A stretch of DNA of 64,000 bases, from NCBI RefSeq assembly GCF_032854445.1, contig NC_088303.1:9059501-9123500 (forward strand), written 5' to 3'. The notes beneath the pieces were generated by a model, which worked only from the letters and a program-made list of their open reading frames with translations, had not been told where the DNA came from and made no database searches. Positions 29,075 to 64,000 of this stretch are shown one piece after another. This DNA is from Liolophura sinensis. Lineage: Eukaryota; Mollusca; Polyplacophora; Chitonida; Chitonidae. Position numbers and translations under genes: made by a program. Each line of letters opens with the position of its first letter. Within the stretch, counting starts at the first letter, position 1.

Positions 29075-32000
29075 TGGCCTCCTTGTTGATAATGTAAAAT
29101 GATAATCAGCGCACACTGTATGTATTTTACATGTATTTCAGGATAGTCCAGTGAAGCTTGAAGACCTGCCCAGACAGCTTACAACCTAGCTAGAGCATCA
29201 GTATAGACTGACTCAAACTCGCAACCCTTGCAAAAACATATTCAAGTCATGAATCAAGATAGAATGGTCATGCATTAATGGCTTATGGAATATGTGGTTG
29301 TGACTCTTAGTCTGTAAAAGGACATTTCAAAAATGATGTGAAGAGAAAAAAAAAAACATTTGAGAAAATCAAAAATCATGCAACAATTGTACATGTATAC
29401 TAGAAACTAATCTGAATAGTGCACCCAGATGAATGTTCTGTGCATTATCTGCACTCTGTTGAAATATTACCCTTACTCATCAAAATGATTCAATCAACAA
29501 AAGCAGTTCAAAGCGAAGTCTGATTTAACTTACTGCCATTGTACTAGTCACATGAAATTTATGGGGAAAATCAGCCATCGGTAATGAGAAAATGCCTTTG
29601 AAGAAAAAACAAAATTTTATAGCGAATATAGTTAATGTTCAGATCTGGCAAAGAAGGTTTTAATGTTGCTACTATAAGCCATTTATCAAACTTTAGACTT
29701 CCGAAAACGAGTCACTCACGCCACCCTTATGTCAAACAAAGAACGATCTGAAGCGGAAGTAGGTCAAATTATTTGTAAGGTCTGGTTTGGCAGAGATCAA
29801 AGAAGCTTATTATCTGTCATGTTTGATTCCATACGCCTCTCAGCTTCCAAAAAATTGCCTCCTTAAAAGATTAGTGTCCAGATTTACTCAGTGGGTGACG
29901 TCATAGATGGCCAACTCAAGCCTAGCTGGCCTAAATAACCTGGGGATTCATGTCAAACTGGTGTCATTTTTGAGATGAATTTTAGCTACTCAGAAGCAAA
30001 TATACCGCCACATCAATTTGAACCCATAGTGGACGACACCGAAGTTCTGATTTATGACACTGACATCGCTGGCCAGATTCTGAGTTTTCACACTTTGAAT
30101 GATCTTTGTCCAGGTGTTTCCAACCACATTGGCAACATATACGGGCTGGTAAGCTACAGCTTTACCTTCACAATATAAATACAGGTAGGATGTGGACATT
30201 GGCATCACGGTGTACAGAGATTTCCTATCTATCAGATTTTGGCTCAGGTAATAGTATTTTCGGTTCAGTTAAAAGTACTGTGTGCAGGTGTCATTGTGGA
30301 AATTTCGCTGTATTCCTATCACAGTTTTCAGGTGTAAAATGGCGAGAGCATATATAAAATATGCATATATCGGTGGGTACAAAATCCTTCGTTCTTGTGC
30401 TGTAAATCCATGCCTTCCTTAAGGCCAAGTCATCTGAAAACAAACTCCATGGTTCTCTGATGACCTGTTTTTACAAACGTACGCTCAACAGCAAACCGTT
30501 TCGTGGAGAAATTTGATATGCTTGTTGTCACTCTTGTAGCTTTTTCAACACTAGACTAAATGGCGAAGCTCTGACAGCTCCTGAAAGTTGGATTTGTATG
30601 ATGTAAATCAGCCGGGATTACCCAGTGTTGGTGGAAAAAATGCATAAAACCAGCCTCATTATCTTTAATTGCCATATTACTCAGAATAATGTACCCTTTT
30701 TCATTATTTTTTCCCAGTCAACTTAATACATACACGAGTAGCTACATGTAATTATGAATGAATAATGACACTGGACACTAATCCTTTAAATATAATCCAC
30801 GCAGAGGGTTATGAAGATTTCTGTAAAAGGGTGATAACTCTTGCGAACAAGTTTCTTCGCAAAACTTTGGATATATGTTTAAATGGAGTTTATATTTAAA
30901 TTTTAAATATTTCTTTCAAAAAGCAACCTCAAACTGAATAAATATAACCAGTTACTGACTTTTTCATTCAATCAACAGACTAAATACCAGTCTGTCCCGA
31001 AGACTTCTATGAAGCCCTGATGTGTACATGTCCGAGATACATAAACAAAAATCTTTACTATTTCTCACAAGAAAATATGAACTTCAATGGCCCTATATTA
31101 TATCTAGGAATTTGACTTACCCCCCAACTGTTTGGCAGCACTGTCCTCGGAGGCAGGAACAGGAGTTTTAACATCCTCCTGGGGACTGGGGGTGTGGTTG
31201 ACCACCACAGGACTATTGTTGATAGCACCAGTAGCAGCAGGGCTTGCAGCAGCAGCTTGGTTTGATGTGCCCTTAAACAGCCCTGCCCAGGACACCTGTG
31301 GCTTAGGGGCTTGTGCAGGGACACTAGCCGCAGACGAAACAGTCAAGGCATCGGAACTGGCATCAGAGTCTTTTCTCTTATCATTTATAACCTCATCAGA
31401 CCGACAGTCAACTGATTTGTCAATCGTCTCTGTATTGTCAGGCTTTTTGATATCATCTGATATTGTAAGATTCTCTACTTTATCTAGAGGTTTGGACTTG
31501 TCAGAAGCCTCAGCTTCTACGGACTTAACATGGCCTTCTGGCTTAGATATATGCACGCCTGGCTCTGATATACATGCAGCTTCCTGTGGGTCTTTTTTTG
31601 AAGGAGAATCTGCAGCTTTGGCCACTTTCTTATTAGCACTGATATCATTTGGTTCAGTACTACAAGAGTTTGTCACAGTAACTTGTTTGCCACTGATAAA
31701 TTCATTTTGACCAGAGGGTTCTGAAGTCCTACAAGGGGAGGTAATCCTTGAATCCTGTGACACACTAGGTTCTGTCTTACCGTCTAGTACATGCACATAT
31801 TTCACATCTTTATTCACTTTTACAATATTATTGTCTTTAGCACATCCCGTAAGAGAGCTGTCCTCGTATATAACCTCTCCAAACTGAATGGGAGGAGAGT
31901 TACGTGGCCGCCGTTGGCTGGACTCTACATGCCTATGCTGACTTGAATCTTGAGGTTTGGGCTGAATCTTTTCAGTTGGGGACGGCCGCCTCATGTAATG

Positions 32001-35000
32001 CGTTTCAGTTTTCGCAACCTGCGGCATGATCTGCCGCTGGGGAGACCGCTCAGGCATTCCGAACCCCGGAGGATGTTGCCGCACATCCTGACTGACTATG
32101 GGAGGAGGCCGGGTGTCCACCGGGTTCCTCTGGTATGTAGGGGTCATTTCCATAGGAATGCCATGTTGGTGCTGGTTGACGGGCGAAGTCATGTGGGCTG
32201 GTGGGGGTGGCATTGTCAACAATCCATGTTGTTGTTGCATATGGCTGGCCAGCAGGGGAACACCTGGAGGATGCATCGGCATAGATACACCCCCTTGAAA
32301 TGGTGACATGGGATAACCTGGAGGCACAGAAAACATTGGTACCATACCCCCTCGGAGTCCAGTGAATCCACCCGCTGGCAGCATCACAGGGGAGGAAAGC
32401 ACTTGTGGTTGATGTGATGTAGGCGGCGCCACCATTGGAGGCAGTGCCTTATGGTAGCCAGAATTGTCTTTGTTGTGTAGCATGTAATTTAATTCTTCTG
32501 GCCTGTAGCTGACTGGGCTTCCAGTGAATGCTTCCTCTTGTGCGGCAATCTTTTCATAGTATCCAGGAGTACGTTTCTTTTTATTGCGTCTCTCATAAGT
32601 CTTCATACTTGCTAACAGCCTGCCAGTCCCGCGCTGTTTCCCATCAAAACTGCCTCCGTTCTCAGAGTAGAGCTCGTTACCGTCTGTGGGCGTAACTTCC
32701 CGGCTGCGGTCTGTAGAACCACGAGCACTCCCCGATGAGGAATCGTCCGATCTGTCATGATGGGCCACACTGTAACCTGAAGGGGAGGAACTGTGTTGAA
32801 AGGTCCTCGTGACACCACCCGCCTGGTTGGACACTGCTGGACCGTACCTTGTCAAGTCCACGCGGGTATCACTGTTTGGGTGAACATCGGTCGCTGGTTT
32901 ACCCTGAAGAACCACCTGTTCATTAATCTGACTGGGTATAGTGAAGCCCTCCACAGTAGTGGCTGTATCAGGGCCAGAGTTCTGTATAGAGCCTGTGACT
33001 GTAAAGCTTTGTTCGTGTCTTTCAGCGAGTGTTGGACCACTGAGATGCTCATGGTCAGCCTGTTTGACCAGCTCTCTCATCTGCACATCAACATTATCCC
33101 AAGGGAACTGAAAAGAAGAGAATAAAGCATGTGTTATTGAACATTTTAAAACCAATCTTCTTAGCAGGCAAGTTGTCATTAACTGAAAAATAATCTGTTT
33201 TATTTATTTTTTGATTCCTTATATGGCCAAATGATTAGATGTTTACACCAGTGATCAAGAATAGGCTGCATGCATAAAGGTTTATACAAGGGTCTTTGAA
33301 AAGGTTTACTGAATTTATAAAATGTATTAATGCCTTTCTTATTCCATTTTTAGTTTGTGACATATTCTATTGAGTACAAAATAAGCTTTTCAGTCCTCAT
33401 ATTATACGGTAAAACTGCCCTAAAAATCAGTTATCAGTTTTCAGCAGCACCCTGATCAGTGGTGTACATCCTGAACGGTGTCAAAAAATCTATGTGGAGC
33501 AAGAAAAGGTTGCGTTTTTTTTTTTTGGTGCATTTTTGCATTATTAAATATTAGCTTAAAAAATGGACATTTACAATCATCATTTAACTGTTACATCACA
33601 GGAATCCTCTAATATCATTACGTTTAAGCCTGTACTTCTGGGTGCTTGTTTACTTTTGGTTAAATCTCTTATATTTGGATTTGCCTAAACTGAAACATCC
33701 TTGAACAGATCCGTCACATACAACCAATAGTGAAAGAATACTGCAAGAAAAAAAAAAGTCACAAAATCACGCTTGTATCTAGTTCTGATAGAATAACATT
33801 GAATGGCTGAGCTTTGTCACAAAGTTTTTCATTATACATGAACAGTCTGAGCACACTACCCTGTCTGTTGCGTGCTATCTTATATGGCAAAACTGTTTCA
33901 CATGTAATTTAGAGCAACTGAGAAATTTATGAGTCTTAATACTTGTAATTTGATTATGGAGATCTATATGCTCGCCTCCAAACGGGTTGGTTTGCTTTCT
34001 TTTTCCATTTTCACTGCCTCATACATGTATGTATTAGCCTGTATTAGTGTGTTACAATAAAGTTAATACTCTAATTCCTCAACAGTTTTGCATGTGAAAG
34101 AGCACCTTTCAGTGCAATTTATGCTCATTTAAACTTTAACTTTGGAGACAAATCTAAATTGGTTGGGTTGGCCAATTAAGGACTTCACAATAAGTATAAT
34201 TTAATCAGTCTACAGAATAATGCCTTCAGAAAATTCTAGAGTAAACACCTTGCAAACATGCAAAAAGAAGAATTACAGTACTAGGTTTTATGTTTATTTA
34301 TTTGATTGGTGTGCTCAAGAATTTTTCATGACAATCATGTTTATGGGTGGAGGAATCCTAAGTGCGCATTGTAAACCCTGCTAGCTTTCACAAGGTGCTG
34401 GATAAACTTCCTGCCTTCAAGTGGCAAATGCCAATGTATATGTCAGAGCGACAGTTGAATTTAAACACACAACTTCACAGGTAAATTGCGTGCGGGCTGC
34501 AGCGAGCCAGAGTTTTAACCATTTGAGTTACATGTAGCAAGACACCTGTATATGTGCACATAAAATTATAGCAGTGGTCTAAACTGTTCTGATACATCTA
34601 AACTCAATCTTACCTCAACTTTTCTATCCCTAGCTCCTCGAGAGCGATGAAGGATTGCAAACACTTTATCATGCTCCTCATCACTCAGGTTGCTAAAGTC
34701 CCCAAAGGATAAATTCTGTATATAAAAGAGCATAAGTAAAACCTAATGACCATTTTCCAACACAATTTCTGAATTACATGTATTGGATAAGGAACCTGAT
34801 GGCAAATCACACAGGCCTTTCAAAATTACTTCAATTTTGAGAAGCCTGGTAATAAAAGTCAGATCACCATACAAGGAGAAGGAGCACCCGACATATCAAG
34901 GCACCTGTACATGTATGTGCTGAAACTTGGTCTGCAGAAATAAGACTGGAATGACAGACTGGATGATTGTATGAAAGTCATGAGAGTCTTGACTAGGTGT

Positions 35001-40266: not shown

Positions 40267-42929
40267 AGCTTTCCAGACGACGTCCACCGAAAATCTTAAC
40301 AAATTAGAAGTTTTAAAATATGTACACCCAAGAATAAAGCTAACCGGTGATATTGTTGTGCCGCCAGTAAATTGATAGTATTAGTGTGTAGCCTACTGTA
40401 AAAAAGTTCGGTAAAAGTTACAGTGAACTATTAAACAAGTTTGTACCAGGACTGTGCTGTTTCACTAGCCTTCTTGCTAGTGATATTTTATTTACCTTAT
40501 GGTGGTAAGAGCTTTCAGTTAAGCTCTTGCAAGTATACAGAGAGATTTATTTTGAGATGTACGCCACAAATTCACAAGTATTTAGTTTGGGCATGATGTA
40601 GAATAAAAGAAATATGAGATAACGTCTGAGATAGAGAATCAGAGCGTCAATTTCATTGGATAAACTGTCTGTACATACGTCTCTGGCTTGACCATTCAGG
40701 TATATGATAGTGCGATTCAAAGTGCAAAGGAGTGAGCATGGGACGTGGCTCGATCTTTCACCGTGACACCTTATATAGGGTAACAAGACGATTATGTGCG
40801 GTCACAACTAAGGCAGTGTGGTCAATGGAAGATATACTTTATCTATGCCCTTATTCTATATAACTGCAATGCGAGGAAGCATATCGTCAATTTTAACGTC
40901 TCGACCATAATTGGTGCAAGCAGTATAGAACACGGACGCGCAGGCCTATATGACCCTATATGGCTGCTATAGGTCTACTGTGTTGTTATATGTATGCTAC
41001 TCATATATAGTTCACCTGTCAGCTTGTCCATACTGTCTGTTAATACAACTCTATACCTGATACGCATGAGCTGAATAGGTATAATAGAAGCCAAGGCAAA
41101 GAAAACGAGGGATGAATGCGCGGGAGGTCATGTATACGTGCACTATGCGTACAGATACGGTGACCACATTAATACTCCCCCACCCCACCCCCCAGCCAAA
41201 TCATTCACATTTTCTGCGCGTGCATTGCAGAAATCTGTCCACTTCCTGTCACAGCTTTGACAAAACATTCAAAGGTAAATGCAGTCATAGAATATACATG
41301 TACATGCACGTAGATGTACACTCTTAAAACGCAGGTGCTGAGATGTCAACATTTGGGATGTGTAAGAACGATGAACATGGTTAAGAGCTGTAATGCACGG
41401 GAGCCAACATCTTAGCATGTTATGAGAATTACTTACTGGTAATTTACTTTACAACACGTTTTTTACCATTTATATTTTGAAATTGGAAGTAAAAAAAACA
41501 AACATGTCAGAATATTTTCTTTTGATTCAAGTATATGTGTATCTTATAATACATACGGCTATATGCATTTGCATTGTTTTAATGTTATTATATCTTAACT
41601 ATGATGACAACACACATTTTTGAATAATCCTAGACCAGTGACGTCTAATAAATTCCAATTAACATCACCGCATTTTTGTTTGATTTATTCTCATTAAGCC
41701 TTAATGGACACCGGGGGCGTGTAATTTAATACTTAAGCATTTCCATGAACAGTTAGAATAAAACTTTAACTGAGGTTAATTGACAACAGACCGTATTTCA
41801 CTGGTCAGGTGTGACCATTTGCCAATTATAACACTGTTGTCACTGCTCTTTATGCTCTTTTATTATATTAATATAACCTTTAAGTGCTATATGTCATTTA
41901 TCAAACATGAATTAACTGTTTCTTTAATCAAGTCATAGTTGATCTTATTTGTAAACAGAACAGCATGTCAGATGCAAGGCAGCTCATCCTTTCTCGAATG
42001 AGCGTGCTTACCATACGATAGCTCGCTTATGTATCATTTCTGGATTCTAGCCAACTAGGTATATATGTACAAACCCGGACCTTGAGAGACGAGGGAAAAC
42101 TGCATGCAAACACATGCATCCAGAATTGCCAACTCTATAAAAATTATACGCGGCACATAATGTATTCATAGCATGATAATTTTTCAGATTTTTTAAGCAA
42201 ATATAAAAAGCTCAGATTGTTCTTTCAAATAGCTCTAGAGGCGTATGCATAAACCCATCACGTCCACACAGTCTTTACCGCTAAAATTTTTTATGGCAAT
42301 ACATTGCTGTAAAAGTGTGGAATTCGTCGTCGGTCACTATCTGACGGGTACAGTTCACATATATATGTGACTAGCAGCCCAGTACAGACGGTCCCAATTT
42401 CACGCCGGGGTGATTTCTGCCCGTATTAACGCTGTCCTTCCCTTTGGCCCATATGCTGATACGCATTTTTACTAAGCGTACCTGAATTCGAAAAGAAAAA
42501 AGCCCGCGACGACAGTTTAAATGCCATCTGTCGTGGCAGCAGACGAAGAATGTGGCCGCTACCGGCTCGAGGAGAGCGATCGGCATCTGGGTATAAGGCT
42601 GTCGGAATTGACCAGTGCGTCTGGGTTAAGTCTGAAGGGGTTAGGCTATTGACAGAAGGAAGGCCAGTGCTATAATACCTGTATACACACAGCCTCTCTG
42701 TTACCGCCTGTAACCTCGCATAATCACATTTATGTTTGTAGAGCGGAGAAAAGCGAACACGATCGCTTCAATGTGTCGTGAGCGGAGACGGGTGGGCCCC
42801 TGGAACTGCACTGGGCGCAGAAGCTTTTCATGTAACGACACACCTTTGTCGCCGGTGTCAATCGGGAAGGTAAATTGAAACAAGGATTGGAATTTTCAAG
42901 TCGACGATTGAGTGAAAGTTTGTTTCAAA

Positions 42930-45900
42930 ATGGATGGGTTCGCACTCTGGCTGTTCACGGTGATTGTGTTAGTTTACCAGCTGAGTTCTCTGAGAGACAC
43001 CAGATCCAACGGACCTTTTCGATGGATGCGGTGGGACAGTTACGACGAAATTGACACAAAGTTTACGTCTGTTAATTCCAAAAACTGCATGACGAAGATG
43101 AAAGAGGATTTGATGTTTCCGGACTCGACCGTGGCTCAAAAACCGCAATTCAACCAACTGCCGACCCAACCTTGGTACCAGAATCGGACGACGCTTATCC
43201 ATATGCACAATATGGCACTCAACAGGGCCTTCTTCTACAGTTTTATTTTCCAAAAGTTGAACAAAACCGAGCAGTTTGCTTACCAGCCTGACTGGCAGTA
43301 CTATTACATGAGCGCCACTGCTGACGTCAACGCTAACCCTAACATGATTAACGGAAGCGCCGTGTTTTTCGCATTCAACTCTTCCTATCCCAACTGGTTT
43401 GTCACACTGCCTTTCAACACAACTCTCGAGCTATTTGCACCTAAATCCTGGCGATGGGATGACTACGGTGATCAAGATAACTGGCTTAGAGAACCGACCA
43501 AAAGGGTAGCCATGGTCAGGGACATTGGGGCCGGGCTAGGCAGCAACTATACTCATGACGCGTTTAAAATGAACCCGTGGTACACGGGTACCTCCACCGG
43601 GTTTAGGTGGCTTCCGGATAAAGATGCGAAAATGGACACTGTCACGAAGTTTACATACAGCGTGGGCATAAAATACTCCGATGTCACAGGAACTTTCGTC
43701 GCAGACGAGTATGAAGGTACGGCATTCTTCGGACCCGCCTCACCTGGCGCTTTGGACAAAGACATAGCCTTGCCCGTGCTTTTCACGAGACCCTATTACG
43801 ACTGTGGCCAGGCTAATAAATGGATCGTCAGTGCGTATTCTCCAATAGTTGACTTCATGCCCCGTTACAGCAATTGGACACATCTTAGGCGTGCCACGTA
43901 AGCATACTGATATATTATTACTATAAGGAGACCTGTACTCAAATGTGACGTGTACTCCGTTGTTCCGTTCTTTCCTTATAGTGCAGAGCCCTGACACTCG
44001 TATCTATACGGTATATATAGTTCACATGTACATGGACATGCTTGTTTGGTTCACGTGACGGTGTCGTTGACATAGTAACGACCACTTTATGGTATGCTGT
44101 CGTGAGCTATCAACAGTGCCACGAACACCTCCTGAATGTGACATTTCTTTGAGACAGAGACATCGCTCCTATTCATTTTCCATTTTCTTGTATCCAAAGT
44201 AGAGCAGACACGAATAATATATACGAGAATAGCGCTTTTATTAAACCGTGTATACATCCAGACACGGTATAAATACATCCACATTTACCACTTAGCCTAA
44301 TCTCTGTATCATATGTCTCATTTACAGCCCACAGATTATCGGTCCACAGCTTTACACATTTTTTCCAGCAGCTTAACGTATGTTTTTGTATCCGTTTCGC
44401 TTAGTTTATTTTAAAATTATGACGCACCAAATTTATCACGAGTATAGAGAATGTCACCATTATGATATGACTCAATCGGCTTAAAGATGAAGCCAGATGA
44501 TTAAACACATTATATGTACATGTATGATTCAGCATCTATATAGATGAAACTTAATGAGCTCTTAACAAATTATACAAGAATTAACAGAAGATACCCCACA
44601 CCTTCACTCTCTTCATCAGGGCAAATCCAGCCCAATAGCCCCAAAAATTACCTATCACAAAATGTCCGTCTCGTCTGTTCACGCGTTACTATTCAAACTG
44701 GGTAAGGAAGTTCCTAAATTCGTAATACGGGTCACATTATAACATTTTCAAATTTTAGAATCATTTTAACACTACAAATACACACAGAGGCTTAATATTT
44801 GCTAAAAGGAAATAATGGGAACTATTCTTATTAATGCAGAAAATGTGATTTGATTAGCGAGCATGGATTTTTTGCAAAAATCCTCGCCGTACATGCAGAT
44901 TGTACGTTGAAAGGATGGTAACCGTAAATAGTTGCTGCAGTGTAACCCCAACAACACATACATATCCGCAGATAATCCTCATCTTGGTCATCAAGTTTTA
45001 CGAAAATCCCATCCAAATTGTATGAGGAGATTCATTCACAAGAAATCCTGTCGATTGCTTTACTCTTCTATTTTAAACACTGGGAATAGCAAATGAGACA
45101 CAGGTAGTAATTCTTGAACTGAGCAAATTAATTTATTTTGGTTGCCAGAGTGTTCACTGTTAGTGGTCATAAATGTATCAATCCAACCAATTCTCTTGTT
45201 TCTAACTTGGAAAATCTGATCTACGTTATACTGTAATGTTTGTTTTCAAAACGGGTATAGCTAACACTCTCGTAAAACAAATATGCACGGTTCTGTACAC
45301 ACACTTGTTTGCGTAGAATGAATGAATGAAGGCTTGGGGTTTAACGTCGTACGTAACAATTTTTCAGTCATATGACGACGAGGCGCCATTACGTGTGTGT
45401 ACATATAATGTGTCTTCTTGTGGCAGGGCGATTCGATGCCTCCAAAGTGCTGCCGCCATTAAAGTATTATGACGAAGACACCAGACATGACACCCCACCT
45501 AGTCACATTATACTGACACTGGGCCAACCAGTCTTGTCTCCTTGCTCTAACCTCTGAGTGCTGAGAACCAAACGAGGTAGCAACAAGTACCATTTTTAAT
45601 GTCTTTGATATGGCCCGACCTGGCTCCCGATGTAAACAGTGTGTGTATATATCACATATACGTACAAAATCTTAAGCATACATACACACATAGTCTACAT
45701 ACACATAGGTGCACGTTGTGACACACATTTAAAGTGTAGGCACATAAAGATGATGTATGCAAGGTACACGTTAAAGTTCCTGCATGTGCAATTAAAGCTT
45801 TTTACAATTAACGTGTGTCCGTGGAACAGGTCTTGCGTAGTTTTTGTACATAATTGCTTTCAGCTGCAAATATAATGTGTTAGATTTAACAGAAAGTCTG

Positions 45901-48900
45901 CTATCTGAGTGATGCTAGAATATATTCTTTTATTGCGGCAGATTAATCTGTTAAATATAACACAAATATTCTGTTAATTCAACGTAACCACTCTGTTAGA
46001 CCAACAGGATATTGTGTTGAATATGTCACAAAATTGTGTTATAAGAACAGAAGACATTCTACTATCACTCAGACAACAAACTTTGTGTTAAATATAACAG
46101 ATTAATATTTTGAGTGTAGCAAGGTTACATTCGTTATGTATAACGTAAAATAGATCCTAAATTATATATATATATCTATGGATTCACCGAATATAATGTA
46201 TTTAGAGCTCTGTCCCTGTCCGAATTCTGTACCGTTAGCATTTATGCCAGTTATACATGTGATTTGGACTTCTCTGAAACCTTTCATTTCTAACATCTCG
46301 CCAAACACCCTTAAATTTCTTCAAATCCGTTCTCCAATGAGATTGGCACTGTTGTTGGAACAGACCATTCAGAAGTTTAGTTGTTATTATATAAAATTCC
46401 GCTATACGCTGTGTTATAGGAGACTTGTCAGTATTTATGTCTATTGAATCAACATGGTGATTTCAAGGACAGCTGCGACCAAATCGCGACAGAGATGTAT
46501 ACACGTACCTATATTTGTATTTGACATTGGAATTATTCGTAGAGTAACAGTTTGAAATTTGAATCTGAAGTCATGCCTGCAATCCTCCCGCATGCATGCG
46601 TAATTGAGTGAATGAGTGTTTGAGGTTTGACGTCGTATTTAACAATTTTTCAGATATATGACGACGAAGGAATCCTTACAGTGCATGTAATGTGCCTCTT
46701 TGTTGCAGGACGGATTTCCACCGCTCTTTTATCTAGTGCTGCCTCACTGAGACGTCTTACTGAAGGCAAGTAAGGCGCCCCGCCCGAGTCATTATACTGA
46801 TACAGGTCATCCAGTCGTTGCACTTTTCCCTTAATAGTGGGCGCCAAGCGAGCAAGTTCTAACTTCCTCTTTTAAAATCTATCTGTGACTCGACCCAGGA
46901 TTGACCCTGCACCTACCTCTCCCGAACATGGGTAATTGAAAAGTGATTATTGCTTCTATATTCTACTCTTCCAGCTTTATTAATTACTATTTATACATTA
47001 TGGTTGAGCCTCCGTGGCTCAGTTGGATAGTGCGCTAGCGCAGCGTAATGGCCCAGGAGCCTCTCACCAATACGGTCGCTATGAGCTCGTCCAGCTCATC
47101 CTGGCTTCCTCTCCGGCTGTAAGTGGGAAGGTCTGACAGCAACTTGCGGATGGTCGTGGGTTTTCCCCGGGCTCTGCCCGGTTTCCTCCCACTATAATAC
47201 TGGCCGCCGTCGTAGAAGTGAAATATCCTTGAGTACGACGTAAAGTACAAATCAAATAAATAAATAAATATATTATATATAACACGTTCCTTTGGTAATG
47301 AATGCTTTATTTTGTTTTGGATCTTACGACTACTAACTTGGAATACGGCTTTAAGGTGTACGGGAGGTGAACGATAAGTTTGAGATGACATGCATGGGAG
47401 TGCTTAGTTAGTCACGAAACCAAGATGGTCATTTACCCACTTGAAGGTTAGAATTTATGTTCAGGTGGGTAATCAGGAGGATAGCATTCTTGGTAATATA
47501 TATCCTGCATGTATGTAAATGTGGGTGTGGACAATGTAAAATCAAGGGTAGAATTCATGTCGTCTATCTAAATGAGAGGGTATAGAAAGAGCCGGGTATT
47601 CATGTACCTATAAGCTGCCAGGGAAGAAAAGCCAAGAAATATAAACCCTAATTTATTGCAACTGTTCTTATTAACATTATGCCGAAATCCGTTCATTCTT
47701 TAAGATCATGGCGATCTGACACATCGATCAGTAGAATGTATGTGATCTTGGTTGATAGCAAGTAGATTAAAGGACAAGACAGCACCTGGCTAAAACATAT
47801 TTCTATCGAAAGCAGTATTCTCAAGTTTTCTAAAAAGTATCATACTTTATTATTTCAATGAAATTTCACCGAATAACATGTAGAACAATATGACAATATT
47901 GCACAAATCGCTGGTGTTAATCGAGGCAGACATCCTGAGAGTTTTATCCAATGAAATACGTTGCTATCAGAATGCGCGGCCTAAGCTGTGACATAGTCTG
48001 TACCCATTCTCTCCATGATATTATTTGATTATAACACAGAACCACTGTATGTGATATCATTTTGAAATCGTTTACAAGGATTTAGTTACGTGTAGCCGAA
48101 GGGCCATTTCATACAGGGTTGTGGGATAGGTGTGTATCAGTTACGGTCCACCACAGACGTTAATTAATTTATTTACAAGCCGTCTAATATTCAACGATTG
48201 CATCACAAAAGTTATGTCATAGCATAATGTCTCGACTACAAAACCGCATTTATGTCCCCATAGATCCTAGGCCTACTTAGACGCGCTGTTTAAATTATAC
48301 AAATACATCTTTTGTCGTTCTTTTTAGCGTTTAGTCGGCAGTTTCCAAATAACAAGTATCAGGGTCAGTGAAAAATTCATTAGGGATGCCGGAGGTTATT
48401 GGGATTGACAAAACGGAATCTCACCGAACAGTGCTTAAAATTAATTATTCCTTATGATATATTGTTTTTTTCTCTAAGTTTATTAGAAGTGAAGAATTTA
48501 AATTTTGCTCCTTTGTCTTTTCTCGCATACAAGTGATGGGTTTTTCCCGTTTTGTTTTATAAAATATACTAAAATTATTGAAACGCCGTGTTCAAGCGGA
48601 GGTGCTTTCTCTAACGTCCGCGATAGCCAGGTCAACAGAGCTCTCATCTTAGACGCCACCACCACAAAACCGAAGCATAAAATTCAACGACAGTCGACTG
48701 CCTAGATCAGCCTCACTGGTGCTTAAATATATTTCCATTTGTTTCAGAATTGATCATGAATCTAGTTGTACGACAATCCTGTCGTAATTTATATACATTT
48801 AATATGGGTCAAAATAACCAGCACAACCTCTCTGGACGGTACGACCTGAACCAGGAATATCCCGGCCATGCATCAAGCGGGCTTACTTGTATCAACAGTT

Positions 48901-51900
48901 CAAGCGGTGGAAGAAATATCCTTCCAGTGTGTCCAGTTTCTGAGGAAGCTATTTATTGGACCCTCATCGCCGAAGTCCACAACATTTATCTGCCATAGAC
49001 TACTGCTTTGATTATAATACTGAAATACCTTCGAAGTTAGAGAGCTAGAGTAAACTTGACGTCACCTTCCTGTCGATAATGGAGGCGCACTGAAGCTGTG
49101 TCAACACAAAGTTTCACCAAACTTTTATTGAGTTGAAAAAAATTTTAAGATACTTTGAAAGGTAGCCTTTCAGTGGACATAAACATTAGTCGGTGCTGTC
49201 TTTCACTTTTACTACATGTACAGGAAACGCAAAACAGTGTATCTTGCATAGCCGTTTGAACCATATCCGCTAAGCCTTGACACGTGCTTTTGTCGAGTTG
49301 CAACTAGTAGAAATTTCGCAAGATTCAACCGAGACAACAGCTGGCCTATACATCCAATGTATTTTTGTTAAGTTTCATATTCTTTACATCAGACAATCCT
49401 GAAACAACTGACTGCATTTAGAAGGATGTTTTCTGTCAAATCAATGTTGAAAGCTTCATTACTCTCATAATACTGAAATGTTATAAATAACGTTGGTAAT
49501 GTTAAGGCCAACATTCTGGCAGTTGTACATGGATGGAGGTGGGAAAACGTTTATAGTGTCAGGTTAACGCTTAACTGGTAACACCTTCAAAATATTTAGG
49601 AAATGTTGTACGTAGCTTGGTGAAAAGTAATAATGCGGATTTGTACTTTTTGGATGAAATCCAGCATTTTGTTTGAAGGGCATGCTGTATGAAATCTTGC
49701 TGCGCGTTACTCTTGTTGTGGGTTACCTTTGTAGCGCGTTTATCTTGTTGGGTGTTACTCTTGTTGCGGGTTACCTTTGTTGCGCGCTAAAAGTTTGTTG
49801 GTAATTTGTCGCGAGACCGTAGTAGAGACGGTTTCCTCCTAATAGATGATCACAGTAGCATAAGCGAAATAGTCACAATTAACTTTTTGGGTGTGAAACG
49901 CTATTAAAATAAGTAAGTAGGTAGGTAGATCTTTATCGCTGCAAGTTGTCAAATACCGTTTTGTGGATTATGTATATACTTAAATGACTTGTCCTTATTG
50001 CTGCTTCGTTTGGCGCTCAGCACTCTGGGGTTATAAAGCAAGGAAACAAGGCTGGTGCTTCTAGTGTCAGCATAAATGTGTTTGAGTGTGATCTGATATC
50101 TGATGTCTTCCGGATGATACTTTAGTGGCGACAGCACCTTAGCGGCATGGACTTGCCACAAAAAGAAACAGTGTACGGACACCTAATGATTTCTTGTCGT
50201 TATATAACTGAAAAATTGTTGAATACGGAGTAAAAGCTTAAGCATATATATGTACTTAAATAACTGAGACTACTATTCCGCAAGACATTTGTTTGTTATC
50301 ATTTAGTGGCAATGACTATTCATACATTATATTGTACAGCGATATAACTGATGTACACGTAAAATTTGGATGTTTCACGAAACTGGGAAGCTTACATACG
50401 CTTTAAAATATTCCCCGTTGTGGCCATAACCGACATACGGAGTTTTACACGGGCTGTTGTTGAGTCAACCGCCGTGTAACCATCTGACATAGTATATCGC
50501 TGTAAGAAGTGCCCCTTACCCAGGGGTCATGTTCACGAGGGATGCACTATTTCTAGGACATTGTTAGGACAAAAGACGCGTATCCTCTACGGGTATTTTA
50601 TTACACAACTAGACAGAACAAGTTCTGTAATTTATTTGTCAAGGCAATATCTCATGCTGAAATTCGACACAAATGGATCTGAACTGGCGTGTGTTTTTAT
50701 TAACAAATACAACATTAAACTTCCATTCTGTCGAAACTCTGATAGACATGTGGGGTAAAATGTCATGAAATCCGAAGAAAACAGCTTTCAGAAAGGAATA
50801 TATGTTGGTAAAATAATACAAATAACCTCTGTAGAACCCCTGAACTACCCCTTAGGCGGGTAACATACCCCTTAGGACGTGCCTGAGAAAAACCTCCTTG
50901 TCTCTCCGGCTTTTTTAAGCTAAGTCAGCGCATGACACCTTGAATACAGCTAAATCTGTGTTACATATCGTGCTGTTCACGCTAAGATACTGTTCAAGGG
51001 CGAGGTTTCGGTCGTTAGTTTTGGAGATTTGGAATGTATATTTTACACTATTTACCTAATAGAGGAAAATATATAGGTTATTGGTATCGTTTTACTGATT
51101 TTCTTCCCTCTGAATTTCACCCCATTTAGTCCCTTGTATGTGTCTGTGTATATCTTCTACATCTCTCCACTGACAACACGCAAATACAGAGTAAATGTAT
51201 ACCAACTACATGTATGACTTTGGTATCATGTATAGTCGTTATCATGTTCATAATGGAAGAACGCGCTCTGTCGTGATAAAGATCTCTATGCTCTTGGCGG
51301 AGGAACATGTGGGGATATAGAACATTTGGATGGTGATAAAAAATCATTTTCAGAAACAATAGAATGAACCATTGATATTCATTGTTTGCTGTGTCCTTTA
51401 GTATTCATTTCTTTAACATTTAAACTTTAACTTCAAGGCGAAGTCTCATCTTCAGGCAGATGTGTTACATTACATTTTCGGCTAATGAGCTATGCTCATT
51501 TTGTCACTATTTCACTGTTTAGCTTAGCTTAGATTAGTTTATTTATTTTAGAAAACATCAAAGTCTATCTACAGAATTAAGGCATGCAGAATAAAGAGTA
51601 AAAATAGCAATTAAAACTGTACAAAGTACAGGTATAGAATGTTGCCATAAACATTTTTTTATTTGATTCTTTACATTTCCTTCAGAGCGAATCATGCCAG
51701 TGGTACAGTTACTTGTTGTAAATATCAGTCAACAGATTCTGAGGGCGTGACAAAAATGTATATTTGAGTAAGCTCATTCGACATGATTGAAACTGGAAGA
51801 GTCCAAAATGTTATGCGATCGTATTAGCCTAAACTTTTGTGGGGGGTTGCTCGACTAAATATGATGACTGCACTGTTCTTTCCCCTGAACGCTTGAGAGC

Positions 51901-54900
51901 AGATCTGTTGCAGATATATGCTGTAGAATTTGGATTATTATTTATAATGAAAATATTAATAACCTAATACACAAAATTAACCGCGGAACAGAATGGAGAC
52001 AAGATAAAAGGTCTGTGGCCACGGTTACCATTCTATAATGAAAATGAGGATTTCATCCAAATAAGTTGCTATGCATCTCGCTGTTTTCAGAACAAAATTA
52101 AATATTGTATATATTTTATTTCGAAACATTTCGTAGTACTGGCTGAATGTTCATGTTTCACTGAATATTACGTACCGTATGTGTATCACACAATGACGCC
52201 CTGAGAAGGATAAATGTGGGTTTATACCATGCTTCGTCCAGTTCATCAAAGACTTAATTACTGTATGTATATTATATTCTATGGTTGTAGGATCACTGCT
52301 CTGGTTGTTATAGACACTGATTTTAACAAACTGGATTTCAACGCATGCCCAGTAGCTGTTGGTAATCCTGGTCCGAGTTACCTGTCTGGGATAGACAGGT
52401 GTAAAACGAAGACGACAATGGTGAGTAATAAAGGCGGAGAAAACATAAAATGAAGTACCTTTATTAAGGACGTCAGGAGGTACACGAGAAACTGTATCTA
52501 GAATCTGTATCAGCTTTTGAGATGGTCTTGCACAGCCTAACGTTAGTTGAAGATCACTTGGCTTCCACCAAAATGATGTGGATATCTCAACGTCACATGA
52601 ACGTGAAAAAGTTCGTCAGTAACTTGCCAAAGAGCGATGGTTTATCGCGGACAAAGGTCTTGAAGGGTACTGCAAAAACGCATGATTCCTTTTAGACCGT
52701 GACAGATAGCCCATCGTAACGTTCCCACCGTAACGCTCAGCTCCGGTCACATAGGCTTCCACCGACAATTTTACTAAAAACACCGGCTCGAACCCTACCT
52801 AATTTTTGCTATCCACCGATTCCCTAAAACGGCCGAAATGTAATACTAGTATGTCAAAGCCGTCTTTCAACAGTAATCCAGCCGTTTAAAGTTTGGAATC
52901 GGACCTCTCAAATCAACTTCTGCCATGTCTGGAATTTGTTTTGTCAACTCAAGGCCGCTAGAATTTTATTCCACCCAACATTCTGTTTACAATGATTGCA
53001 ACTTTTAAAGAGAATGTTGGGTAGGATAAAATTTTCATATAATTACATACTTTAAACTTTTAGTTCGGGTATTGATGGTTATTCGTGATTCTATGTTATG
53101 ATGGCAGTGCAAGCATAAGATGGGCTTCGGCTTTAAGAGGGGTGGATACGTGTGTATATGTCGCCCAGGCTACAGGTACCCGATGTACGTCACCCCACCG
53201 TTTCAAGGCGTGGATTTGGAACGAGCCACGGAGTATGAATACAACAACAGTTACCAGTGCGACTCTGTCGACTGTGAGTGAGATGAAGTCTTATTTGATT
53301 TCTGGTCTTCCCTTTATATGTGCATGTAGGTAAATGAAACTGCAGTTTTAGGAAACCCTTCACTTTAGCTTGTTTGCATATAGTACAGCCGGTCTTAATT
53401 CACATTAAACGAACAATGTCGAGTTCGCTTCAATACAACTATAAATATGTAGGTGACTGCATCTGTTATTTTCGGACATATTGCATATTACATACGATAT
53501 TGCTCATCTCTTATAGACCAGGGCCCTCCGTGGCTCAGTTGGTTAGCGCGCTAGCGCAGCGTAATAAACCAGGGGCCTCTCACCAATGCGGTCGCCGTGA
53601 GTTCAAGTGCAGCTCATGTTGGCTTCCTTTTAGGCCGTACGTGGGAAGGTCTCTCAGCAACTTGCGGATGGTCGTTTGTTTCCCCCAGGTTTTGCCCGGT
53701 TTCGTGGCATAAGTGAAATATTTTTGAGTACGGCGTAAAACACCAATTAAATAAATAAATAAATATCTGATAGACCATATAGTGGCTATATATTATACGA
53801 TATTGCTTCTCTCTTATAGATCATCTAGAGATTATCTCTAGATATAGAATATTACTATAGAATATTACTTATCTAGACCATTTAGTGATTATCTCTTATA
53901 GGATGTTCTTATCTCTTATAGACCATATAGTGCTTATCTCGTATACGATATTTCTTATGGACCTGTTAATATGTGGTTATTTCTTACACCATGTTTCTTT
54001 TCTCGTATAGTTCATATTGTGCTTATCTCTTACAGAACATATAGTTGTTATCTCTTATACATCATCTCGAGATTATTATACGATATTGCTTTTAGTGACC
54101 ATACAGTGGTTATATTTTATACTATATTGCTTAGAGATCATCTACAGAAAATTGCTTATCTTTAATAGACAATATAGTAGTTATCTCCTATACAATATTG
54201 CTTATTCCTTATAGTAGTTATCTCTTATGTGATATTGCTTATCTTTTGTAGACCATATACTGATTATTTCTTTTACGATATTGCTGATCTCTTATAGTGA
54301 TTATTTTTTTACGATATTGCTGACCTCTTATAGTGATTATCTCTTAAACGATATGCCTTATATAGTTATATCCTGTACAATATTGCCTATCTATTATAGA
54401 CCATGTAGTGGTTATCTCGCAAACGATAGTTTTTATCACATATCTAAAGCCTTTATCTTTTTGTGTTGTGTATTTCACTCGCGCACATTGTATGTGTGTA
54501 GTATACACTGTCAAGTTACGGCCAAAGTTATCTTCTGACAATTGTGTGTATTTTTGAGATTTATTTCACCATTCATATCCAGGAAGAAACGGCCTGGTAT
54601 ATACAGAGCAACACTTGAACTTGGTCGATCATGCAGACCGAATGTTTCAATTCACTTCCCGCTGAGTTGGCTGCGGTTTGAGGACACTGGGTTTTATTGG
54701 AATATACATGTATCCATACACATCCAAGTTTTGTCAGATGCGATTGTTTACTCGTGATTTCGCGTGGTACCACCAATTGGGCTCATCATTTCATATACAG
54801 TGTATCACACTGCAAGGTGTGGTGGTTTCCTCTCGGTTTCCACAAATTAATGTGGTCTTCGTTAACGAATATAACGCACACTTAATTATTAAAGGGAAAC

Positions 54901-57900
54901 TATATAGTTGATGTCATGCAGTGAGCTAATGTGTCACTTTCAGAAACTCCATTATCCACGATTTAAATTGTATGCCTTTAATGGTACAGTAAAGTTTTTA
55001 TATTTTATATTACTGTGAATAAAAATTCTCTTAAACAAAAGACAACACGAGGCCAAATGTATATATACACCAATAAAATGTCCCATATTTTAAACAGCAT
55101 AACGTTGCTTTTGTGATGTTGCATAACCTAGATATCGCAGTTCATACTAATAAGAATCATGTATATTGAGACAATCGAAAGCTCCGTCATGTTGTCAGGG
55201 TTATCTAATCAGGAGTTATTTCTAAAACCCGAGAAGGCGTCTGTTTCCGGTTATATGTCACCCAAGCCCTGTTTATCCTTTTAACTATATGTGCGTTGAG
55301 TTTCCGGTCGCTCTAACATGGCACATCCAATGGTCTCGCAAAAATACCTTATTAGAAGTTGATTTGTACAGCGTTACCAAGCAGTTCCGAAAAATGTCGG
55401 TGAATTTCATCTCTCTTCCCAAATAACTTGTGTAAGATTATATTATTTTTGTCTTTTCTTTAAATCTTCATTTCTGTTTTGAACAGGGGCCCAGGTCCTT
55501 CCTAATATTGAATACGACAGAGATGTGCTGATGGGACGAGTATCAAGAATCAAGCAAGCGTATTTAACAGATATCGTGAAAACCCGAGGACTGAGATCGA
55601 TCAACTTGACCGCAGAGGCTTTCGGACCTCAGCTGAAGTTTTCTCGCCGGTACATGCCACGTCACTTTCGGGTTGGTCCCTCTCATGAAACTACAACGGC
55701 GGTGTCTCATTACGAGATCGTCCACAGCCACCAGCTGATGTATCGCTTCAGCGAAGAAAATGATCGCGGAAATCTGACTTGGTCAGTTTCTAGACGCGTG
55801 AGACGGAAACGATCGCTGTTCGATCAAACTAAACGCCATCGGATGGACAGAATCTTTCGCAAGAAGAAATCCGTCACGGCTGCGAACTGTGGCGGTCGTA
55901 GTGAAACAGAGTTACAGCTTCCGGGCGACGTCTCTTACGGCGTCGACGAGCAGTTTGAGGCCGAGGCACGTACCGCCTTGCGCCTTGCCCACTTCCTCTC
56001 TAACTATCTTCAAAATGTGAACTATGGCGAGAACTTTGGCGATATCCGAAGCGGAGGACATCTTCATGTTGATCATATGTTTGGAGAAGTCATCGCTAAC
56101 GTCATGTCCAATTACCGCCTGTGGTCCAGTGGGATTTTCTTCGAAAGAAATTCCTTCGAAAATTCGGATGGGTCGACACGCGAGTATTTCGGGCCTTACG
56201 CTTTTCGAACAGTAAAATCAACTTACGACGCTTTCGACTGGGCTGGGCTTAGGACACCTTACACAACGCAGGATTGGTTTGTGTCTATGAAGGACAGATG
56301 GGAGACAAACTTTGAGGGTTTGGTTAAGTACAAAATGAGACCCTACTTAAGATCAGACGTGAATGGAACGGGACATAAGCGGTTTGAGTACTTTCCGATG
56401 TCGTACAAAGCACCAGAGCTGAAACACGGTCGATGGAGCCGGCCGTATTTTAAGTGTGACGGCATAACTGATGACTGGGTCATGACCTTCACTGTGCCTT
56501 TTTTCGGGAGAACGCAGTTAAGAGATAGGCTGCAGTTCAGGTAACAGTACCGATCTGTAAGGTGGCTTATCAGTGCGATACAATTACTTTTGCATTTTCT
56601 GAATTTTTGCTAGTAAGGCGGCGTATCAAGCTGTTTTATCAGTAATCTTAGTTGATCGGTTTACATTTTAGCGAAGAAAATGTTTTACATATGAAATTAT
56701 TTTTTACGAGGAAATTGTTTATTACGAGGAAATTATTTTTTCACATGAAAAATGCCTCGGTGGAAATATTTCAACCGTGGTAGAAATCATTTACACCGTG
56801 GTGAAAATATTTCCAATACGGTGGAAATATTTTTCATGTAAAAAAAAATTTCCTCGCAAAGAAAAAAAAATTTTCCTCGTGAAAAACAATTCCTATATGA
56901 AACTGGTATGACCGGTGTTTTACGCCATACTCATTACGCATATTTCACTTATCCGACGGCGGCCAGCAATATGGTGGGAGGAAACTTGCAGAGCCAGGGG
57001 AATCCCACGACCATCCGTAGGTTGCTGAGAGTCCTTCTCACTTACGGCCGGAAAGGAAGTCAGGATGAGTTGGACTTGAACTCACAGCGACCGCATTGGT
57101 TGCATGGCACTAATAACCCACCGTAGATCTGTTTTGATGATTTACTTTTTAAAAATGGAAACCTACATGGAAAACGTGAATATAAAAAAGGATATGTTCA
57201 AAATTGATAAGGGGATTTGTTGAGTTTGCTGTCACATGACAGATTCAGTTGAATGCAGATTATTGTTTTCACAACGAACAACTGAGAAATAGTTCAGCAA
57301 CCAACGAAGGAAGCGGCCATTCCGCTTCTTGAGACCTCTGAGATGACAAATGGGAACTAAAGTAGAATCTCTTGACACGCTACGGAGAAAAACGTTTTAA
57401 TGACTGATTCACCTGGTAGCCAAATTATGATTATGAGCTGTCTCTTGTACTCTTTATACTGTCGTGAAAAAAGAAGAAGAAGCGGGAATTCACAATAGCT
57501 GCAAGACAACACAAGGAACAGATGTCTTTATGAACCCAGGTTTCCTTTAATATGAATATGCCATAATAACAAAACGAGGTTGACCAATAGTCAGACAGAC
57601 GCAACAGACAGACAGACGCACTGACAAACCGACAGAGCTCCTTATGCGGATCCTTGTGACTCTGGCTGATAAAAAACGAACTTTACGCATAATCTCCATA
57701 TCTAAACTTTTCAGAGGGGTCATCTCTGTGGACGTGAAGCTGGATGACCTTGACATATATCAGTGTCCTCAGCCCTTCTATGTGGCCAACGCTTTCAAAA
57801 ATACGGCCCGATGCGACGGACTCTCTACTGTGGTAAGTCACTGGATGTAAATGAGTTATACAACTACGGTATCTTCTGAGATATGTCTTTCTCGCCTGTT

Positions 57901-58986
57901 TTACGTTACTGTTCAGCTGTGTGAGTTTGCTAATTTGCGTGTTTTACGATACGTGCTTTTTGCAAATCACTGTCCTTCATTACAGTTATTGCAACAGTGC
58001 CCTATTTGTATTAGCGCTCCCCTTAATACAATGTGTACTTTGCTACATTTAGCACTTTGTTGCACTGCCGATTGCTACAGATTGTCATTTGTTACAGTGT
58101 ACCCTTTGATACAATATGCCCTTTGTTACAGTGTGCCCAGATTAAAGGGTTGAAGTTTATCGGCGGAGGGTATCGATGTAACTGCGCACCGGGGTTCGAG
58201 TACCCTCACAGAGATAAGAAGATGTGGATAGAGGGCCAGCTGCTTGAAAACGAGTATGAGAAGCAGCAGAAAGGGCTGTTTAGCAGGTAAGGAGCCGATC
58301 AGTGTCAGTTTGATGCTGGCAACAAATAAGAAAACCCAAGAAAAGTTTTGCAGTTTCGACTTGAAACTGTGCATGGTGTGCATGATATTTCTCTGATCTC
58401 ATTAGTATGTATACTAATGCTATAGACACCAGTGACAGTACAGACTTCACGTGAATGCCTGTCAGTATGCTTGGGGTTTAACGTCGCACTTAGCAGTTTT
58501 TCAGTTATATGACGACGAGGAATCATTAGGTGTATGGACTTTTATTGTGTCTTCTTGTGGCAGGGGGAGTCCGTGCCGCCAAAGTGTTGCAGTCACTGAA
58601 GTATCCTTCCGAAGACATTTTTTGTCATGCTTTGACCTCTCAGTGCCGAGCGCCACGCGAGGCAGCAGCAAGTATGACCCGACCCGGGTTTTTCACGCGA
58701 GGGTCGGAAAAGAACAGCCTTGGTAACTGGCGAACATATTGCATCCCAAAGCCTATATATCAGGGCATGGCGACCCAAGCGTGTTCTTAAGCTGACGCGG
58801 ATTTCCTTGTCATTGTGGTGTTGGGAAAATGGTTTCAGCGGTGGTTTACATGTCCATTATTAATTCTCTTGTTGTTCCAGGTACGACGACCTCAAGTGCC
58901 GAGTTTCCAGTGCTCCTATCCTCTACACCCATTCATTGCCGGTCCTCCTGCTGACATCCGTTCTATTTCGCATTGCTGGCCGTTGA
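42930..58986 (+). CDS. Tandem Cache-EGF protein, GPR158/179-type ectodomain without 7TM
   Basis: Exons 42930-43897, 52291-52420, 53108-53273, 55487-56540, 57715-57832, 58132-58286 and 58881-58986 join in frame to 898 aa. A signal peptide (WLFTVIVLVYQL) starts it. Unit 1 (about 40-421) and unit 2 (about 422-870) each have a Cache-like domain ending RPYYDC or RPYFKC, a linker strand (ALVVIDTDFNKLDFNACP; VISVDVKLDDLDIYQCP) and a six-cysteine EGF-like domain with GGYVCICRPGY or GGYRCNCAPGF. Cysteines fall at 342, 360, 367, 382, 384, 417 and at 790, 806, 813, 828, 830, 870; the central spacings are identical. This is the ectodomain plan of GPR158 (metabotropic glycine receptor) and GPR179, but no 7TM follows. 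About ten N-glycosylation sequons are present. A furin-type RRKR lies at 527-530, and a hydrophobic tail ends the protein. The role is probably extracellular ligand sensing or binding; the ligand is unknown. The ATG (aaaATGg) is the first in frame before the signal peptide. Confidence 0.88.
45310..45625 (+). repeat. SINE family D copy
   Basis: Blocks ggcttggggtttaacgtcgt, cagtcatatgacgacgagg, gtgtcttcttgtggcaggg, cactgggccaaccagtc and gtgctgagaacc. Confidence 0.7.
45866..46119. mobile_element. Palindromic MITE with arms of about 50 bp
   Basis: The left arm (tttaacagaaagtctgct, then ctgagtgatgctagaat) and the reverse-complement of the right arm (tttaacacaaagtttgtt, then ctgagtgatagtagaat) align along about 50 bp. 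The middle holds further copies of the ctgttaaatataacac motif in both orientations. It has no coding capacity and lies in intron 1 of the Cache-EGF gene. Exact ends and target duplication are not clear. Confidence 0.7.
46608..46926 (-). repeat. SINE family C, 5'-truncated, with target duplication
   Basis: Same family as 907-1242, lacking box A but retaining the box B region. Flanks catgcgtaattga (46595-46607) and catgggtaattga (46927-46939) match at 12 of 13. Confidence 0.75.
47007..47273 (+). repeat. SINE family A, full-length
   Basis: Head cctccgtggctcagttgg, body cttcctctccggctgtaagt and gggctctgcccggtttcc, tail with a (TAAA)n run. Box B carries a small deletion (gagctcgtcc). Confidence 0.9.
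48738..49225 (+). repeat. Interspersed repeat family E, copy 2
   Basis: Partner of 23107-23635 (see there). The substitutions and short gaps are spread evenly, and no reading frame is preserved between copies. Confidence 0.75.
49685..49795. repeat. Short degenerate tandem repeat
   Basis: Alternating ttgttgcgggttacctttg and cgttactcttgttgtggg-like units, about two to four copies. Confidence 0.6.
49985..50250 (-). repeat. SINE family D copy
   Basis: Reverse-complement blocks include ggcgctcagcactc, agtggcgacagcacc and attgttgaatacggag. Confidence 0.6.
53523..53755 (+). repeat. SINE family A, full-length
   Basis: Complete head (ctccgtggctcagttggtta) through the accaattaaataaataaata tail in intron 3 of the Cache-EGF gene. 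Flanking atagacca on both sides is compatible with a short target duplication, although the neighbouring tandem repeat carries the same word. Confidence 0.9.
53763..54440. repeat. AT-rich tandem array, unit about 45-50 bp
   Basis: Diverged units built from tagaccatatagtggttatc, tcttatacgatattgctt and tatctctta. About fourteen loose copies in intron 3 of the Cache-EGF gene. Confidence 0.8.
56684..56903. repeat. Long inverted repeat, arms of about 100 bp
   Basis: The left arm (tacgaggaaat, cacatgaaaaatgcctcgg, tggaaatatttcaaccgtgg) pairs with the right arm (ccgtggtgaaaatatttcc, tttttcatgtaa, atttcctcg, ttttcctcgtgaaa). Almost the whole 220 bp can fold as one hairpin. It lies in intron 4 of the Cache-EGF gene, directly beside a SINE. 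Probably a foldback MITE. Confidence 0.8.
56908..57125 (-). repeat. SINE family A copy
   Basis: Reverse-complement of the body and part of the head: cggtgttttacgccatactc, cggcggccagcaatatggtg, then gacttgaactcacagcgacc (box B region). Confidence 0.85.
57918..58131 (+). repeat. Cryptic tandem repeat upstream of Cache-EGF exon 6
   Basis: Loose units of cctttgttacagtgt and ctttgatacaatatg type run up to the exon 6 acceptor. Each complete unit contains an acceptor-like ttacag. Confidence 0.6.
58465..58720 (+). repeat. SINE family D copy (Cache-EGF last intron)
   Basis: tgcttggggtttaacgtcgc, cagttatatgacgacgagg, gtgtcttcttgtggcaggg and gtgccgagcgccacgcg. Confidence 0.7.
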
Positions 58987-63929: not shown

Positions 63930-64000
63930 GGGCCTCCGTGGCTCAGTTGGTTAGCGCGCTAGCGCAGCGTAATGACCCAGGAGTTTCTCGACCAATGCGG
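63930..64000 (+). repeat. SINE family A, cut by the window end
   Basis: Starts ggcctccgtggctcagttgg and proceeds through box A to accaatgcgg. The rest lies outside the window. Confidence 0.85.

Follow-up and report, generated by a model that had tools for sequence, protein, structure and literature searches.

A 64,000-nucleotide stretch of the genome of the polyplacophoran mollusc Liolophura sinensis (assembly GCF_032854445.1, contig NC_088303.1, forward-strand positions 9,059,501 to 9,123,500; hereafter the window, whose own positions are used below) contains a seven-exon gene at 42930-58986 on the plus strand. Its spliced frame has 898 codons followed by TGA. It encodes two successive modules, each a Cache-like domain joined to a six-cysteine epidermal growth factor (EGF)-like unit, as in the ectodomain of GPR158, a glycine-sensing receptor (mGlyR), and of GPR179. 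The gene is laid out as follows.

42930..43897 (+): exon 1, with the start codon, the predicted signal peptide (residues ~1-22) and most of Cache module 1 (residues 1-322)
52291..52420 (+): exon 2, final Cache strand of module 1 and first EGF cysteines; entered in phase 2 and left in phase 0
53108..53273 (+): exon 3, remainder of EGF-like unit 1 up to C417; left in phase 1
55487..56540 (+): exon 4, basic linker (residues ~422-530) and most of Cache module 2
55795..55812 (+): convertase-like RVRRKR (residues 525-530, R-x-[KR]-R pattern) at the linker end, directly before Ser531
57715..57832 (+): exon 5, final Cache strand of module 2 and first EGF cysteines; phase 2 in and phase 0 out, like exon 2
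58132..58286 (+): exon 6, remainder of EGF-like unit 2, lacking only the final cysteine
58881..58986 (+): exon 7, RYDDLKCRV, which includes C870 as the sixth EGF cysteine, then small residues, a hydrophobic tail resembling a glycosylphosphatidylinositol (GPI) signal, and TGA

The gene and its two modules

All six introns are bounded by GT-AG, with phases 2,0,1 in module 1 and then 2,0,2 in module 2. An in-frame stop lies close 5' of the start codon, the frame opening at 42912. A preliminary description of this DNA had put forward the same 898-residue, seven-exon frame, and both the splice signals and the full reading frame bear it out; the junctions it named (43897/52291, 53273/55487 and 58286/58881) are those of our predicted spliced model. 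The protein has an N-terminal hydrophobic stretch, the predicted signal peptide, and a weaker one at its C-terminus, with no further 17-residue stretch above the hydrophobicity threshold.

The whole protein matches the Pfam family PF22572 (GPR158_179_EC) in two stretches with an E value of 4.4e-42. Taken separately, the halves reach 66.4 bits (module 1, 3.5e-18) and 83.7 bits (module 2, 1.4e-23), the curated cut-off being 28.1. Module 2 also scores 35.0 bits with the Cache-type sensor model MCP-like_PDC_1 (cut-off 27), to which module 1 gave no match. The six-cysteine EGF-like units span C342-C417 and C790-C870. A search of the PDB with the single window sequence found GPR158 (7.9e-13) and GPR179 (8.1e-9), both via module 2; the six matches listed at E<=1 were three distinct GPR158 entries, two of GPR179 and one unrelated antibody chain (0.29). 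With profiles built from the three genes of the family described below, GPR158 was reached by module 2 at 3e-12 and by module 1 at 1.6e-7, and the five matches listed for each profile were all GPR158 or GPR179. Alignment of the two module profiles with hhalign covered 320 columns (probability 99.7, E 1.8e-26), and module 1 is therefore homologous along its length, Cache part included. GPR158 and GPR179 are thus the best solved relatives, as the kinship proposed earlier would have it. Of the two Cache-EGF units proposed at the same time, the PF22572 match in each half and the six-cysteine units are found, and the Cache fold is predicted.

A three-gene family and its receptor relatives

When the window protein was compared with its own genome (609 Mb, 632 contigs), 24 matches were obtained, which outside the window comprise two further genes and weak matches at receptors. 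The paralogue C9b lies at C9:13.83 Mb on the plus strand (857 residues) and C1b at C1:54.27-54.28 Mb on the minus strand (896 residues). Both are complete models with GT-AG introns throughout; in C1b, exon 3 offers two frame-keeping donors at most 4 bases apart, of which GTAAGC was chosen. Because both paralogues give the same seven exons with identical phases, and each of the window protein's 16 cysteines is conserved in them (C9b and C1b carry 20 each), the window gene model goes beyond chance. Judged from sequence, this is a genuine gene, one of a small family. Amino-acid identity is 54.9% between the window protein and C9b, 46.4% between the window protein and C1b and 47.3% between C9b and C1b. 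Third codon positions have changed at 62-66% and second positions at only 30-35%, which indicates that the protein has long been under constraint; synonymous differences have reached saturation (pS 0.82-0.85).

A genome scan with PF22572 gave 12 matches, and together with the 24 protein matches these amount to the three tandem genes, three receptors and weak places on C1. The places at C1:77.61 and 77.77 Mb were rejected as family members, their weak matches covering EGF stretches only. The PF22572 scan overlooked the window's own module 1, so that a remote relative may have escaped it too.

No 7TM (seven-transmembrane) domain was found by a Pfam scan of the window frame, and the ~11 kb past the stop codon hold neither a transmembrane (TM) exon nor a third module. 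In the whole genome the class C 7TM family has 39 matches, the closest lying ~1.57 Mb from the window gene, 3.16 Mb from C9b and 11.3 Mb from C1b. A query made from the TM stretches of the receptor on C6 gave 13 matches, of which the seven strongest are located at C6:53.82, C9:6.22 and C4:20.81 Mb and the remaining six (E 0.03-0.8) all lie away from the tandem genes. The C6, C9:6.2 Mb and C4 loci carry PF22572 exons beside the 7TM, which makes them mGlyR-type receptors, and they are the only three strong 7TM loci of this kind. The absence of a 7TM, claimed from the first reading, thus holds for the Pfam family, for the mGlyR-type query and for the sequence 3' of the gene. As a separate observation, five class C 7TM matches are clustered at C10:24.52-24.65 Mb (24524688, 24564878, 24576072, 24621159 and 24645481), one of them with nine in-frame stops.

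The receptor core is missing in a second respect. In GPR158, the D loop is described as having two disulphides and contacting extracellular loop 2 (PMC8611064). In all three receptors of this animal, four further cysteines (C..C..GC..C....C pattern) come between the sixth EGF cysteine and TM1, whereas neither module of the tandem genes has any of these D loop cysteines: after the EGF unit, module 1 continues into the basic linker and module 2 into its hydrophobic C-terminal tail. The three-gene family, the missing D loop and the convertase-like site all go beyond the preliminary description. The receptor models are partial, the N-terminal Cache exon having been located for C6 only. In a small local set, this exon matched the module profile with E 3.4e-5 (positions 68-229). 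Extending the search at the C9 receptor by 10 kb upstream gave no such exon (best E 3.1), and none was found for C4. Since phase 2 and phase 0 introns at the Cache and EGF parts are common to the three receptors and both modules, modules and receptors are homologous as genes.

In a tree of module and receptor sequences (11 rows, 104 columns), modules 1 form one clade (100/100) and modules 2 another (100/99); the two-module gene is therefore older than the gene duplications. By path length, the receptor at C9:6.2 Mb is the closest to either module; it shares its chromosome with the window gene and C9b, and the fork that joins it to the modules has weak support (65/75). By path, each module is closer to this receptor than to the other module, and these distances speak for an old duplication or fusion. 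A single clade of all six tandem modules is neither shown nor rejected (p-AU 0.562). The ectodomain duplication proposed earlier is made likely by the matching intron phases, although a fusion of two related ectodomains could have given the same result. Between the proposed loss of the 7TM from a receptor and a distinct ectodomain-only lineage as the starting point, the tree, drawn from one genome, does not decide.

The introns of the window gene also hold repeats. A short interspersed element (SINE)-like repeat with a tRNA-like head (CCTCCGTGGCTCAGTTGG...), its copies 84-88% alike, occurs in the introns and downstream (47009-47185, 53525-53703, 56997-57100 inverted, 63934-64000) and is reminiscent of molluscan SINEs. 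A second dispersed repeat (TTTAACGTCG...TTTTTCAG...ATGACGACGA, 79-84% alike) is found in introns 1 and 6 (45316-45480, 46605-46667, 58453-58617), and intron 3 contains a degenerate AT-rich tandem array with units of ~37-46 nt (53760-54457). Elsewhere in the window, a 699-aa open frame on the minus strand (31104-33203), one long exon-like stretch, has no Pfam match at E<=0.1; its end (SWAGLFKG...) is reminiscent of USP10.

Tail, linker, pocket and the proposed role

In all three tandem genes the C-terminus consists of KCR[VI], small residues and a hydrophobic run, and in two of the three proteins no more than two residues follow the best hydrophobic 12-mer, as expected of a GPI signal. GPI anchoring is thus likely from the predicted tails. 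The product had been called secreted or membrane-tethered; the hydrophobic tail in all three genes narrows this to probably tethered. R-x-[KR]-R occurs twice per tandem protein, all six instances within the linker, which is a putative convertase site and possibly cleaved. Six N-glycosylation sequons are common to the three genes, all in module 1; among those of module 2, none is common to all three.

The modules also differ in the predicted pocket. In work by Laboute from 2023, the pocket residues of GPR158 are said to be Y269, E271 and D307, positions that agree with the chain numbering of GPR158 in our PDB match; E271 of the human protein presumably has a role in glycine binding. The residue aligned with human E271 is Asp in all three modules 1 and Lys in all three modules 2; it is Asp as well in the C6 and C9 receptors, the two for which that exon was found. 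An Asp aligned with human D307 is present in every module 2 and in two of the three modules 1. Module 1 has PY[YF]DC and N-P-W-Y in all three genes, and module 2 has P[YRQ]FKC, with QDWF, EEWF or NRWF at the W[YF] place. The amino-acid motif of dCache_1AA sensors is given as YxxxRxWY and Y...D (PMC9901441). Both modules keep the W[YF] pair of this motif, and Y-x-D is kept in module 1 only. The amino-acid binding proposed earlier is putative; module 1 retains some of the motif, and module 2 has Lys at the acidic position. The decoy or co-receptor role put forward with it is likewise putative.

We lean, with somewhat better than even confidence, towards a tandem mGlyR-type ectodomain that is probably GPI-tethered, possibly cleaved, and acts as a surface subunit in the style of alpha2delta. 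Its product, with a predicted signal peptide and two Cache-EGF modules of mGlyR/GPR158 type but neither D loop nor 7TM, would reach the cell surface and would probably be held there by a GPI anchor. Module 1, which is predicted to be glycosylated and in which more of an amino-acid-type pocket is kept, may sense or hold an amino acid or another small ligand, and module 2, with Lys in its pocket, would be the anchored structural half. A proprotein convertase may split the two within the linker. GPR158 ectodomains are described as pairing side by side via Cache helices (PMC8611064), and a tandem chain could pair within itself, its halves packing like the two Cache domains of the GPR158 dimer. Its action may be to modulate another protein, perhaps one of the animal's three mGlyR-type receptors. 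The likeness of the layout to alpha2delta and the pairing of GPR158 ectodomains are our grounds for preferring a tethered sensor or an accessory subunit, in which module 1 would be the binding half.

Several observations weigh against this proposal. The tail of C9b runs 14 residues beyond its best hydrophobic 12-mer and ends in HDHNKYL, which is less like a GPI signal. The last exons were sought by a hydrophobic run and an early Cys (one candidate in the window, three at C9b and two at C1b) and then chosen by KCR, which was not a scan criterion, so that part of the hydrophobicity seen in the paralogue tails stems from the selection itself. The Cache fold rests on sequence homology, since both AlphaFold models, made from single exons as unspliced sequence with two-row alignments, are too poor to test it (mean predicted local distance difference test score 37.5 for exon 4 and 28.8 for exon 1). 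Finally, amino-acid binding may be lost or changed, because the motif Arg of YxxxRxWY is absent from both modules, as in the C6 receptor, and module 1 of C9b lacks the Asp aligned with D307.

One alternative is an adhesion or synaptic-organiser protein without a ligand, in which the ectodomains would serve protein contacts and the pocket would be a relic. The missing Arg, the Lys at the acidic position of module 2 and the Asp lost in one module 1 would all fit; however, W[YF] and PY[YF]DC of module 1 are kept in all three genes across 46-55% identity, which a pure relic need not show, although these residues may be structural. We regard this as unlikely. A soluble or shed decoy appears to us a little less probable: cleavage or failed anchoring would free module 1, which would buffer glycine or a related amine and damp the three mGlyR-type receptors. 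The signal peptide and the linker R-x-[KR]-R sites in all three genes, together with a pocket acid retained in module 1 only, agree with it, and the even cysteine count per module, with no obvious disulphide joining the halves, fits release without proving it. The conserved hydrophobic C-terminus, however, argues that the protein remains, at least in part, attached to membranes, and both the binding and the cleavage on which a decoy would depend are predictions.

A misjoined frame, made up of two distinct genes or of part of a receptor gene, seems very improbable to us. The models come from one genome and from sequence, and exon 3, if read beyond its donor, meets a stop after two codons. Against this, exon 4 lacks a start with a signal peptide, the junction of exons 3 and 4 is in phase 1 with similar residues around it in all three genes (D-W-x-x-V-L-P in two of them), and none of the three has a 7TM nearby. 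Returning to the tethered subunit, a bolder version, to which we give only slight credence, would be a single-chain pseudo-heterodimer of the mGlyR ectodomain, its Cache modules packed like the two protomers of a GPR158 dimer. Here, module 1 would bind the ligand, module 2 would be ligand-blind and GPI-anchored, convertase cleavage would be a maturation step, and the whole, as an auxiliary subunit resembling alpha2delta, would tune glycine- or amine-sensing receptors or channels. If so, an amino-acid-sensing accessory subunit would have been made from the ligand-binding part of a GPCR (G protein-coupled receptor) itself.

Comparison with known systems

The Cache-EGF pair has been described as a metazoan GPCR module (PMC12716839), and a 2023 review states that, among animal proteins, dCache domains had been identified in alpha2delta and Cachd1 only (PMC9901441). 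Among the titles listed by a literature search, none concerned a 7TM-less GPR158-type protein; the search covered publications, and uncharacterised relatives may well be deposited in animal protein databases. A conserved, receptor-less use of the mGlyR module shows that the module can work alone. According to a 2026 nanobody paper, a glycine-bound mGlyR structure does not exist (PMC12834959); the tandem proteins offer small extracellular test objects for binding and pairing of the module. The family is also a hint that mGlyR-type signalling in the same animal may be regulated from outside the cell.

Like GPR158 (mGlyR), GPR179 and the animal's own receptors on C6, C9:6.2 Mb and C4, the tandem proteins combine Cache with a six-cysteine EGF-like unit, and PF22572 is matched in both modules. 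Unlike GPR158 and GPR179, they have two modules per chain and a hydrophobic tail, and they lack the D loop, the 7TM and the cytoplasmic part. A more distant likeness is to the bacterial dCache_1AA chemoreceptor domains: module 2 passes the MCP-like_PDC_1 cut-off, W[YF] is present in both modules and Y-x-D in module 1. In contrast to these domains, the motif Arg is absent, an EGF unit is present and secretion is of the eukaryotic kind.

The alpha2delta proteins are described as GPI-anchored and cleaved in two, with an amino-acid motif in the first dCache domain (PMC9901441, PMC5092059), and a hydrophobic domain with a short putative intracellular sequence is said to be replaced by the GPI anchor (PMC9901441). 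A VWA domain, which is a feature of alpha2delta, is not among the nine Pfam families matched at E<=1 in the window protein. Also unlike alpha2delta, the tandem ectodomains are of GPR158 type, no disulphide link is predicted between the halves and a channel partner is not in evidence. The likeness to alpha2delta, and to Cachd1, is thus one of layout only: extracellular tandem Cache-type domains, a hydrophobic tail resembling a GPI signal, a possible cleavage into two chains and more of the amino-acid motif in the first unit. Taken together, the tandem family is a new arrangement inside a known domain family.

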